DNA from: Candidatus Eiseniibacteriota bacterium | Lineage (GTDB): Bacteria; Joyebacterota; Joyebacteria; Joyebacterales; Joyebacteraceae | Direction of reading: 5' to 3' | NCBI GenBank assembly: GCA_030622115.1 | Contig: JAUXGN010000001.1 | Span: 62,001-126,000, forward strand | DNA length: 64,000 bases | Shown: positions 43,165 through 47,693 of the stretch, piece by piece | How positions within the stretch are numbered: the first letter of the stretch is position 1 | Layout: each line of letters starts with the position of its first letter | The notes under the pieces: generated by a model | Database searches by the model: none | Told to the model about the DNA's origin: nothing | The model's input: only the letters and a program-made list of their open reading frames with translations | Translations under genes and position numbers: made by a program

Positions 43165-44190
43165 ATGATGAGCGTTGGAGAACGCGAGCTGATCAAGCGA
43201 ATACGCGAGCGCGTCGGGGCGCCTGGGCGAGCGACCCTCGTTGGGATAGGCGATGATGCGGCCGTCTTCGAGCGGGCGCAGGGCCTTGGCCTCATCACGT
43301 GTGACGCGTTTGTGGATGGCGTCCACTTCCGTCGCGATTTCGCGACGTTTCGCGAGATCGGCACGAAGTGCATGGTTGCTAACATCAGCGACATCGCCGC
43401 GATGGGCGGGTTTCCAACCCGGGCGGTAGTTTCTCTCTGCATTCCCGCACACATTGCCGAGGCTGACATCGCCGCCATCTACGACGGGTTCCTGGACGCC
43501 TGCCGGCGCTACTCGTTTGACATCGTCGGTGGCGACATCGTGAGTTCCCCCAGTGATCTCGCTATCTCGATCACGCTCATGGGGGCGGCAAGTCGTGACA
43601 GGATCGTCACCCGTTCCGGCGCAGTCGTGGGCGACGCGATTATGATGACCGGGCGGGTAGGGGGAGCCGAGGCGGGACTTCGGGCTCTCACTGCAGGTCT
43701 TCCGCAGGAGGGCGCCGTACACGTGGCCGTAAGGCGGCACTTGAGACCTGTTCCCCGGATCGCCGAGGCCCAGGCGTTTCTCGACGTCGCAACACCTCAC
43801 GCGATGATCGACATAAGCGATGGGCTGGGATCGGAGCTCTGGCACCTTGCGGAAGAGAGCGGAGTCGGAGTGAGAATCGAGGAGAGTCGCATCCCCATTG
43901 ATGCGTCGGCGATTGCAGTCGCTCAGAAGATCGGTTGCAGCGCGTTCGAACTCGCGATGGGAAGCGGGGAGGAGTTCGAGCTTATCGTGGCGATACCACC
44001 ATCGGAGATGTCGCGGACAGTGGAACACATGGCGGCGGTTACGGGAACTACCGCCACGCACATCGGAGATGTGGTTGATGCCGCCGAGGGGTGCAGCATC
44101 GTGAGGTCGGACGGTTCCAGGGAGTCGCTTGAGCGATCTGGATACGAGCACCTGGGTGGTGTGAATGGGGAGGTGATGGGGAATGAGTGA
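43165..44190 (+). CDS. thiL: Thiamine-monophosphate kinase
   Basis: GERELIKRIRE, GIGDDAAVFE, CDAFVDGVHFRRD, ANISDIAAMGG, MIDISDGLGSEL. Confidence 0.94.
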   Translation: MMSVGERELIKRIRERVGAPGRATLVGIGDDAAVFERAQGLGLITCDAFVDGVHFRRDFATFREIGTKCMVANISDIAAMGGFPTRAVVSLCIPAHIAEADIAAIYDGFLDACRRYSFDIVGGDIVSSPSDLAISITLMGAASRDRIVTRSGAVVGDAIMMTGRVGGAEAGLRALTAGLPQEGAVHVAVRRHLRPVPRIAEAQAFLDVATPHAMIDISDGLGSELWHLAEESGVGVRIEESRIPIDASAIAVAQKIGCSAFELAMGSGEEFELIVAIPPSEMSRTVEHMAAVTGTTATHIGDVVDAAEGCSIVRSDGSRESLERSGYEHLGGVNGEVMGNE

Positions 44191-45004
44191 GCGCGTCGCG
44201 TGGCTGTGTGGTCTCTGGATCTGTTCGATCGTTCTTCTTGCTCTGCCGGGTCCTGCGTACGCCGGCGAGGTGTCCGGTGGAATCATCGAAGATACCTTCT
44301 GGACGAGCGCACAGAATCCCTGGGTTGTCACCGGCAATGTCACGGTCAAGTTAGGCGCGACACTGACGATCCTGAGTGGTGTCGAGGTTGTGTTCAACGG
44401 CAACTACTACCTGTGGACCGACTCCACGACCGGAGGGACGATCGTTGTTCAGGGCGCGATCGGGGACAGTGTTGTGTTCAAGGCGGCCTCCGGTCTTCCG
44501 GCTGAGAGACAATGGAGAGAGATCGGGGTGTTCAGCTCGCCGGGAACGTCATTCGACTACTGTGTGGTGATGCACGCAAAGACCGGCATCAAGCTGGATG
44601 GTTCAGACAGCCCGATCACGCACTGTGCCTTGAGGCGTTGTCAGACCGGCATCTGGTGCAGGGGAGCATCACCGTCGATCGAGAGTTCATGGATAACCGA
44701 CTGCTCGTTCGCGGGAGTCCTCTGCGAGATGAGATCGAGTTCGCCCGTGATCCACGACTGCAACCTCTACGGCAATCCTGGGTACAATGTCCGACTCATG
44801 AGCTACGTCGATCCTCCGCTGGTCACAATCGACGCCACGCAGAACTGGTGGGGGACGGCTGAGGTGGCGGAGATAGAGGCGAGCATTTTCGATCACGCCG
44901 ACACGACGGTTGTTTACGGGACCGTGGACTACAGCAACTGGTACAAAGGAACGCCTGTCGAGGAGTGCTCCTGGGGCCACATCAAGACATTGTTCAGGGA
45001 CTGA
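44183..45004 (+). CDS. Secreted right-handed parallel beta-helix protein
   Basis: Signal peptide; VTVKLGATLTILSGVEVVF; NWWGTAEVAEIEASIFDHADT; tail TPVEECSWGHIKTLFRD. Confidence 0.78.
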   Translation: MSERVAWLCGLWICSIVLLALPGPAYAGEVSGGIIEDTFWTSAQNPWVVTGNVTVKLGATLTILSGVEVVFNGNYYLWTDSTTGGTIVVQGAIGDSVVFKAASGLPAERQWREIGVFSSPGTSFDYCVVMHAKTGIKLDGSDSPITHCALRRCQTGIWCRGASPSIESSWITDCSFAGVLCEMRSSSPVIHDCNLYGNPGYNVRLMSYVDPPLVTIDATQNWWGTAEVAEIEASIFDHADTTVVYGTVDYSNWYKGTPVEECSWGHIKTLFRD

Positions 45005-45100
45005 ACACGCAAGCTCAGTCCTTGCCCCCGTCCCGTTGAGCCGAAACGTCCCATGGATAGGGCAGAACGGAAAAGGAGCAGAGAAGCGGAGGATTGATTG

Positions 45101-45129
45101 TTGACAGGTTGAACAAGCTGTGGTATTCT
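45101..45129 (+). promoter_or_regulatory. Strong sigma70-like promoter for the C25 protease gene
   Basis: TTGACA - 17 nt - TATTCT. Confidence 0.8.
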
Positions 45130-45134
45130 TGAAG

Positions 45135-45188
45135 TTGTGATGGGGATCACAAAGCCTGCGGCCGGCAAACGGTCGGAGGCTTTCTTTG
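45135..45188 (+). promoter_or_regulatory. Two-hairpin 5' leader that sequesters the SD
   Basis: Hairpin 1 TTGTGAT-GGGG-ATCACAA (45135-45152); hairpin 2 AAAGCCTgCGGCCG-gcaaa-CGGTCGgAGGCTTT (45151-45183) contains GGAGG (45175-45179), 6 nt before TTG 45186. Confidence 0.7.
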
Positions 45189-47693
45189 TACTCAATCGGA
45201 AGATCGAAGCTGGATGTTGCAAACAGCGTGGGCGCAAGCCTTCTCGGCGGCACCGTCAGTGCCGGCTCCGCAGTCAGGACTTCTGTCCTCCAGGTCGTCC
45301 TCTCAGTGTTGCTCCTCACTCTTCCTGCTCTTGATGCGAACGCCGGACTCGACCCGGCGGCTCTGACTGCCACCAGCTATGAGGTGGCAGTCACCGCCAC
45401 GGCTGACGCCGTGGTCGCTACCCTGTTGCTCGACCCAGCGCAATTGACGTTCGAGCAGCATGAGGGGTACGACCTGGTCTCCCTTGAGGGAGCCCAGCAC
45501 ACCACCGAGCCGGCTCTGCCCATGCTTCCCCTCCTCAATATTCAGCTTCTTCTTCCGCCAAACGCCGGACCCGAGGATCTATCCTATAGTTACGGTGGGA
45601 CGGTCTACCTTCCCGGTTCCTACATGATTCTGCCTGCTCCCCGGCCAGCGCGGTTCTCATCTGGTGAAGCAGTCCAAATACCCCATCCGAAAGCGGAGGC
45701 CTATGGCTCTGCGCTGCCATACCCCAGGGAGATAGCACGCCTGGCCGGGGGTGGTTCCTCTGCTGGTTACGGGATGGCCGCCGTTCTCGTGTCGCCGCTG
45801 CAATACGTGCCGGCGACAGGAGAGCTTCTCTTCCACACACGGATTGAGATCACAGTTGATCTGAACTCTGCCTCCAGCCGCGCGCTGGTTGCCGCTTCTC
45901 TCTCCTCGGCGGCCGGCGCGGCGGTTGTTGGATCCGCAGCCAATCCCGACGACATCGATTCCTACGTGTCAGCAGCATCCGCGCGGGACCATTCCGGTGT
46001 CGACTACATCATTGTATGTCCGGAGTCGTTCACCGATGCGTTCCAGCCGCTGGCCGACTGGAAGACCCGGAAGGGTGTGAAGGCGGAGATAGTCACCATC
46101 GAGTCCATCTATGCGAACCCACTGTTCGACGGGAGAGACAATGCCGAGGAGATCCGGAACTGCATAAGGCAGTACTTCTCAGAAGATGGAACAAGCTGGG
46201 TCCTTCTTGGCGGCGACACCAACATCGTCCCGGCACGCAGGGCATACGATTTCTTCTACGATCAGGGCATCCCGTCGGACCTCTACTACTCAGCGCTCGA
46301 CGGAAGCTGGGACGACGACGGTGACGGCCGGTGGGGCGAGGTCGGGAGCGACAACGTGGATATGTATGCCGACGTGTTCGTCGGCAGGGCGCCCGTCAGC
46401 ACCACAGATGAAGCGGCCATTTTCGTCGACAAGGTCCTCGTGTACGAAGGCGCGTCGTTCACGGTGCCCTCCGACTTCCAGACCAACATGCTCTTCCTCG
46501 GTGAGATCCTCTGGGATTCACCGAATCCCTATACCGACGGTGGCGTTGCGCTCGACATGATCGGCGACGGGTACGTCCCGGACGTGTTCGGTCCGATCAC
46601 CAAACTCTATGAGAGCTCCGGCAACCTGAGCACCGCGTCAGCCGTTCAGGAGCTGGAAGATGGATACGGGATCATCGTCCACGAAGGGCACGCCAACATC
46701 TCGACCGCCAGCGTTGGCCCTGGTGCGCTCACCTCCGCGACACTCGACGGTCTCGGTAACGGTGAGCGCGGTGGTCTCTGGTACTCGGTCGGGTGCTGGT
46801 CGGCTGCCATCGACTACGATACGTTCGGTGAGCACTGGCTGACAAGCAGTGGTGGCGGCGGCGTCGCGTACGTTGGTAACTCTCGCTATGGCTGGGGCTG
46901 CCCCGGCTATCCGGGACAGTGTGTGTCCGACCTCTACAGTCAGCGCTTCTTCGAGTCACTCTTCACGAAGGACCTGGTCCATGCCGGTCTGGTTCATGCG
47001 GACGCGAAGCACAATTTCATCGGTCTTGCACAGAGCGACGATTACACACGCTACGTGATGTACGAACTCAATCTCCTTGGAGATCCTGAGCTTCCGATCT
47101 GGACCGATGCTCCCTCTCTTCTTACGGTCAGCTACGACGATGTGGTTCAGCTCGAGAACGATCGAGGCGATCTCGAGATTGAGGTGACGGTCGGCGGTTC
47201 ACCCGTTGGTGCCGCCACCGTCTGCCTCATGACCAAAGACGGCGGTATCTACGTAACCGGCGAGACCGATGCTGCCGGCCGTGTCGTTCTCGTGGTCGAG
47301 TTCGACCAGCCGTGCGAGGCGGAGCTGACCGTGACGGCTCACAACAGCGTGCCGTTCGGTGGGACCGTCGGCCTCGGTGAGCCGACCTCTGATGTCGGCG
47401 ATGCAGAGTTTGGAAGCGCCACCGCTCTTCAGCAGAACTACCCGAATCCTTTCAATCCCATGACCGGCATCGCCTTCAGTGTGGCGGAGCGCGGCCATGC
47501 CCGAATCTCGGTCTACGACGTGTCCGGCCGGCTTGTCAGGGTCCTTGTCGACGAGGATGTCGACGCGGGGCCGGGCTTCGTGACCTGGAACGGCAAGGAC
47601 GATAGGGGCAGCGACGTTGCCTCCGGGACGTATTTCGCGCGCATGAGCGCGGGTGGGATCTTCACAGAGAGAAAGATGGTGCTGATGCGATAG
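45186..47693 (+). CDS. Gingipain-like (C25) cysteine peptidase with FlgD/T9SS-like C-terminal domain
   Basis: DYIIVCPESFTDAFQPLADWKTRKG, LLGGDTNIVPAR, catalytic-like IVHEGHAN and SVGCWSAAID; C-term LQQNYPNPFNP...TYFARMSAGGIFTERKMVLMR. Confidence 0.88.
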   Translation: MYSIGRSKLDVANSVGASLLGGTVSAGSAVRTSVLQVVLSVLLLTLPALDANAGLDPAALTATSYEVAVTATADAVVATLLLDPAQLTFEQHEGYDLVSLEGAQHTTEPALPMLPLLNIQLLLPPNAGPEDLSYSYGGTVYLPGSYMILPAPRPARFSSGEAVQIPHPKAEAYGSALPYPREIARLAGGGSSAGYGMAAVLVSPLQYVPATGELLFHTRIEITVDLNSASSRALVAASLSSAAGAAVVGSAANPDDIDSYVSAASARDHSGVDYIIVCPESFTDAFQPLADWKTRKGVKAEIVTIESIYANPLFDGRDNAEEIRNCIRQYFSEDGTSWVLLGGDTNIVPARRAYDFFYDQGIPSDLYYSALDGSWDDDGDGRWGEVGSDNVDMYADVFVGRAPVSTTDEAAIFVDKVLVYEGASFTVPSDFQTNMLFLGEILWDSPNPYTDGGVALDMIGDGYVPDVFGPITKLYESSGNLSTASAVQELEDGYGIIVHEGHANISTASVGPGALTSATLDGLGNGERGGLWYSVGCWSAAIDYDTFGEHWLTSSGGGGVAYVGNSRYGWGCPGYPGQCVSDLYSQRFFESLFTKDLVHAGLVHADAKHNFIGLAQSDDYTRYVMYELNLLGDPELPIWTDAPSLLTVSYDDVVQLENDRGDLEIEVTVGGSPVGAATVCLMTKDGGIYVTGETDAAGRVVLVVEFDQPCEAELTVTAHNSVPFGGTVGLGEPTSDVGDAEFGSATALQQNYPNPFNPMTGIAFSVAERGHARISVYDVSGRLVRVLVDEDVDAGPGFVTWNGKDDRGSDVASGTYFARMSAGGIFTERKMVLMR

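Follow-up and report, generated by a model that had tools for sequence, protein, structure and literature searches.

In the greA leader of Escherichia coli (GraL), 19 nt of early RNA are followed by an intrinsic terminator within the 5' untranslated region, which yields RNAs of 37 to 59 nt and about one third of read-through (PMC6829880). Both the segment ahead of the terminator and the sequence of the stem matter in that leader, and Nus factors are reported to be without effect (PMC6829880). The rimP leader is short and comprises little beyond a terminator of conserved sequence, with no antiterminator in sight; it lies 4 to 130 nt from the start codon and may include the ribosome-binding site (PMC2965389). 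Here, we describe a leader of similar layout ahead of a C25 (gingipain-family) peptidase gene, found in a window of 64,000 nucleotides, i.e., the whole stretch of DNA that was analysed. We took the phylum to be Candidatus Effluviviacota, an uncultured lineage of the deep sea and cold seeps (PMC11323493). It is represented by one family in our set of 20 genomes, among which eight genera were compared.

The leader opens with a sigma-70-type promoter on the forward strand (45101 to 45129). Direct reading places the -35 hexamer TTGACA at 45101 to 45106 and, after a 17-nt spacer, the -10 hexamer TATTCT at 45124 to 45129, preceded by TG to form an extended -10 (TGTGGTATTCT), just as an earlier sequence-only reading of this DNA had reported for the two hexamers. 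The promoter reached 10/12 in a promoter scan that found one site in the region against 0.5 expected. Besides, it was kept in all eight genera, with a mean cross-genus identity of 0.82 versus 0.59 for shuffled sequences. Transcription most likely starts at G45137, judging from the spacing to the -10 hexamer and the purine kept at this position in relatives. The earlier reading put the start near 45135, two bases before this predicted position.

We also considered the promoter spacer as a special operator, since ACAGNNTG..CANNCTGT seemed palindromic, and rejected this; promoters ahead of other hairpins (L066 to L068) carry an almost identical spacer, so it may be a general feature of strong promoters. 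At these loci (L066 439-517, reverse strand; L067 1501-1700, forward strand; L068 2-78, reverse strand), a near-identical promoter (TTGACAACTTGCACATCCTGTGATA) precedes a different GC-rich hairpin (CACGCCGG...CCGGCGTG) as well as a block common to these loci, GCTCACTCCCGGGC; in L067, an smpB-like open reading frame (ORF) follows some 400 nt downstream. This element, which has no match in Rfam, is possibly an undescribed structured RNA. At L075 (1501-1640), a long hairpin rich in GC (CCTCCTCGGGCCCGG...CCTGGCCCGGGGAGG) and ending in a TTTC tail stands behind a further promoter, about 200 nt before an ORF for a secreted protein, and is possibly one more leader terminator.

The early transcribed region extends from the predicted start at G45137 to 45150 on the forward strand and has a cross-genus identity of 0.78 in the eight genera; its hexamer TGGGGA (45141 to 45146) was unchanged in all 15 aligned leaders. 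In the window, this region belongs to a palindrome, TTGTGATGGGGATCACAA (45135 to 45152, forward strand), which, as had been noticed earlier, directly joins the GC-rich stem behind it and competes with that stem for bases 45151 and 45152. The palindrome resembles a CRP-type DNA site: TGTGA-N6-TCACA occurs only once in the window (0.04 expected). One rival reading is thus an operator over the start site, at which a CRP/FNR-type protein would act on the DNA and repress the promoter. The palindrome is perfect at +1 in the genus of the window and near-perfect in two more genera, but the remaining five have kept TGGGGA and lost the left half-site. Furthermore, TTGTGATNNNNATCACAA has no perfect copy elsewhere in the family and just a few approximate ones, which argues against a regulon, and we regard an operator of this kind as highly improbable. 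The sequence-only reading had treated the palindrome as the first hairpin of a functional two-hairpin leader. Such a unit is not borne out: only 70% of the cells in this hairpin pair, covariation did not rise above that of shuffled alignments, and most genera have lost the left half. For the same reason, the leader lacks the two conserved hairpins, the second overlapping a terminator, of ANTAR-type antitermination.

The GC-rich stem is an intrinsic-terminator hairpin (45151 to 45183, forward strand), in which the 5' arm AAAGCCTGCGGCCG (45151 to 45164) and the 3' arm CGGTCGGAGGCTTT (45170 to 45183) enclose a GCAAA loop (45165 to 45169), with one internal G.G mismatch and a CTTTG tail; the stem of about 14 bp before a T-rich stretch reported earlier is present. 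Across leaders, the stem begins 14 to 19 nt after the predicted start. The T-rich tail (TTTCTTTG; 45181 to 45188, forward strand) marks the predicted 3' ends of a leader RNA of about 50 nt, and one genus (G008) has a poor T-tract (TTCTATGG). The segment from 45135 to 45188 folds with -28.6 kcal/mol (z = -5.2), and none of 200 shuffled sequences was as stable. A terminator score of the d'Aubenton-Carafa type was positive in 19 of 19 leaders and in 0 of 96 shuffled leaders, the absolute values being approximate with the ViennaRNA energies and coefficients used. The compensatory substitutions by which the earlier reading had proposed to judge its hairpins were found in this stem, although not above shuffles in the first hairpin: 91% of the stem was paired, and 4 of 12 pairs had changed on both sides versus 1.5 in shuffles, an excess that is small in absolute terms because most stem pairs vary little. 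Slid controls, with partners shifted by 1 to 3 columns, paired to only 27 to 52%, far below the true stem. The terminator had a cross-genus identity of 0.71 in the eight genera, and the sequences flanking the leader 0.58 to 0.64, which is near the shuffled level of 0.55 to 0.59. The attenuator raised as a possibility in the earlier reading thus gains support: the leader is conserved and cis-acting, and its promoter is immediately followed by a terminator of the attenuator kind.

The early G-run makes reiterative transcription, as at Bacillus subtilis pyrG, possible in principle. Polymerase would stutter on the G-run when a nucleotide is scarce, and the extra Gs would base-pair with the terminator's 5' arm, permitting read-through; at pyrG, 5' Gs added in this way are reported to prevent attenuation (PMC4448216), and the C25 leader has an invariant GGGG around +4 to +9, with the terminator next to it. 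However, this G-run does not begin the transcript at +1, two genera lack a pyrimidine-rich 5' arm (GCCTGCGGCC and GCCTGCGACC), and a protease gene is not a gene of nucleotide synthesis, all of which leaves slippage quite implausible to us.

The same arrangement preceded the orthologous C25 gene in 19 of the 20 genomes, with one strong copy in each, and only G016 was devoid of it. A covariance model without the promoter (R2) recovered the same loci as one comprising the promoter, the early region, and the terminator (R1), and nothing else strong; neither these models nor a search for an extended -10 followed by TGGGGA at a set distance revealed further strong copies in genomes of the phylum. 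The latter search hit the leader locus in 19 of the 20 genomes and gave four stray matches elsewhere, apart from one contaminating copy. This copy, a genus-4-like leader with its gene, is carried on a short contig (L065, G002:C231) of a genus-1 genome, G002, in addition to that genome's own, and is most likely an assembly contamination. We did not find the leader near distant C25 homologues in other phyla. The genomes searched for C25-peptidase-like sequences (G000 to G012) contained between 9 and 21 matches each; several of these paralogs have in common a promoter of a different type (TTGACNNN...GTTAAAATA) and a normal Shine-Dalgarno leader, with no terminator in the stretches read.

The upstream neighbour varied among genomes, being either thiL directly or a beta-helix gene. 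In the window, a gene for a secreted right-handed beta-helix protein (44183 to 45004, forward strand), which is not the regulated gene, stands between thiL (43165 to 44190) and the leader. In another reading, the hairpin would simply terminate this upstream operon, and the promoter before it would be unimportant; a scan of 44000 to 46000 gave no terminator-like site besides the leader hairpin. Yet conservation is highest in the promoter, the element tracks the C25 gene rather than the upstream gene, and at least one genome (G006) has another terminator-like hairpin upstream, so that we consider this explanation very unlikely.

The C25 peptidase gene (45186 to 47693, forward strand) encodes a protein with a signal peptide, a C25 propeptide, and a FlgD-Ig/Por-type C-terminal sorting domain, and begins at TTG45186 or GTG45228. 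A Shine-Dalgarno-like GGAGG (45175 to 45179, forward strand) lies in the 3' arm of the hairpin, 6 nt before the TTG at 45186 to 45188. The sequence-only reading described the leader as burying this site and as looking like a cis-acting switch; in such a reading, a thermometer or ligand-gated stem would hide GGAGG and the TTG start. The GGAGG is where it was said to be, and each of the five genomes in the window's genus has it 6 nt ahead of a TTG that is in frame. As a mechanism, however, its burial is confined to that genus: elsewhere, most genera place their start codon (ATG, GTG, or TTG) 32 to 59 nt past the stem, mostly with a purine-rich GGAG or GAAG site of its own, and no stem GGAGG with an in-frame start behind it was seen outside the window's genus. 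The buried Shine-Dalgarno sequence is therefore at most a derived, local feature. In addition, a thermometer is unlikely with so stable a stem and the element has no Rfam match, and we judge a translational switch highly improbable.

Some observations concern the start codon itself. Between 45186 and 45240, the ancestral ATG (45214) of the window's genus does not share the frame of the C25 peptidase ORF, so the start there must have shifted, either to TTG45186 or to GTG45228; read directly, the five genomes of this genus show differences at third positions that support the annotated frame from GTG45228 onward. In L045 to L065, 30 to 60 nt past the terminator, the sequence GGAGCTGGAYG around the start codon is kept across genera, including its 4-nt spacer. 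Shifts of the start codon (ATG to ACG-TTG or ACG-GTG) have not disturbed it, nor has the different frame of the window's genus.

We then looked for known RNA classes and regulators. A conserved, mutually exclusive antiterminator, as expected of a classical attenuator or riboswitch, was not found among the leaders, in which nascent pairings were weak and differed between genera, and no ligand pocket was visible. A conserved leader ORF, as in ribosome-mediated attenuation, was likewise missing: the leaders have no common start codon, and the spacing between TGGGGA and the start falls into every class modulo 3. In 13 of 15 leaders the peptidase frame has no stop up to the end of the terminator, but the same holds for the other two frames in 9 and 7. 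The whole window gave no Rfam match at the gathering score, and a permissive search at E <= 10 gave a single meaningless one to a human lncRNA; the covariance models of the c-di-GMP-I riboswitch and the rimP leader did not match either. The riboswitch proposed as one option in the earlier reading thus finds no counterpart in Rfam, and only about 15 nt precede the terminator; that reading had assigned no class despite words recalling c-di-GMP-I.

Among regulators, CsrA was suggested by a hexaloop with GGA and was dismissed since csrA was present in none of the 20 genomes in a search that included positive controls. An Hfq-dependent small RNA was rejected as Hfq was absent in 20 of 20 genomes, and processive antitermination of the RfaH/LoaP type as only one NusG-domain match per genome was obtained where any was found. 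With CsrA and Hfq absent and a single NusG, these searches offered no candidate regulator. The locus might instead be a small-RNA gene, whose product of about 50 to 55 nt would pair in trans through its unpaired conserved 5' segment (UGGGGAUCA) while the peptidase would be made from incidental read-through. A small RNA would indeed be built from a promoter, a short conserved 5' segment, and a terminator, and TGGGGA is invariant. Nevertheless, the leader is always tied to the same downstream gene, there is little room for a separate peptidase promoter, and Hfq is missing; complementary 10-mers (TGATCCCCAG), at most candidate targets, occur a few times per genome. We thus hold a small-RNA gene to be unlikely.

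The reading that we favour, with somewhat better than even confidence, is that the leader is a transcription attenuator with a premature terminator, which would release an RNA of about 50 to 55 nt and in which UGGGGA, the stem, or both may signal read-through. As in attenuators generally, the promoter lies upstream of an intrinsic terminator before the coding sequence, on the same strand, and here in conserved synteny with the C25 ortholog. According to this model, the strong promoter would start RNA at about 45137, and polymerase would transcribe about 15 nt with the invariant UGGGGA before making the intrinsic terminator. Because the terminator follows the promoter within about 15 bases, most transcripts should stop before the gene, ending near 45184 to 45190 as a leader RNA of about 50 to 55 nt. 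The gap from terminator to start codon is about 30 to 60 nt in most genera and leaves little room for a second promoter; the C25 peptidase ORF would be reached by read-through transcripts only. We suppose that read-through is partial and is regulated via the early UGGGGA segment, the conserved stem, or both, by a factor that binds polymerase or RNA, similar to the situation in the greA leader. Alternatively, the level of read-through could be constant. That UGGGGA is invariant and the stem sequence conserved suggests that polymerase or a factor recognises them. More tentatively, and with low probability, read-through may be set across the phylum without an RNA switch: some elongation factor or other protein would read the 5' UGGGGA, in the nascent RNA or the early DNA, and let polymerase pass, and the RNA of about 50 nt may act elsewhere as well.

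The leader family is new, and the kind of control is already known. With the c-di-GMP-I riboswitch (GEMM-I), the C25 leader shares only the short words CAAAGCC and GGCAAAC, which occur in the wrong order; it has no room for the aptamer and no Rfam match. The pyrG attenuator of B. subtilis (described in PMC4448216) is similar in its early G-run and in a terminator directly after the promoter, whereas the C25 leader is not on a nucleotide gene, its G-run is off the start site, and its 5' arm is not consistently pyrimidine-rich. Like the rimP leader, the C25 leader is short, contains little beyond a conserved terminator, shows no visible antiterminator, and lies at a variable distance from the start, but the rimP stem has GGGc...gCCC where the C25 leader has GCC...GGC with an invariant TGGGGA before it, and Rfam gives no match. 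A promoter, fewer than 20 nt, and an intrinsic terminator in the 5' untranslated region are shared with greA/GraL, although gene, phylum, and sequence are other, the C25 leader has one promoter only, and its termination and read-through are predicted, any autoregulation being hypothetical. We saw neither homology to the greA leader nor a position upstream of greA, the downstream gene being the C25 peptidase. By layout, then, the C25 leader appears most like the greA leader/GraL and the rimP leader. These described leaders, with a terminator this near the promoter and no visible antiterminator, control the transcription or translation machinery, whereas the C25 leader is kept phylum-wide ahead of just one secreted protease, although each genome searched has roughly 9 to 21 related matches; this compact, conserved element would show how control at the level of elongation reaches exported degradative enzymes in cold-seep bacteria.
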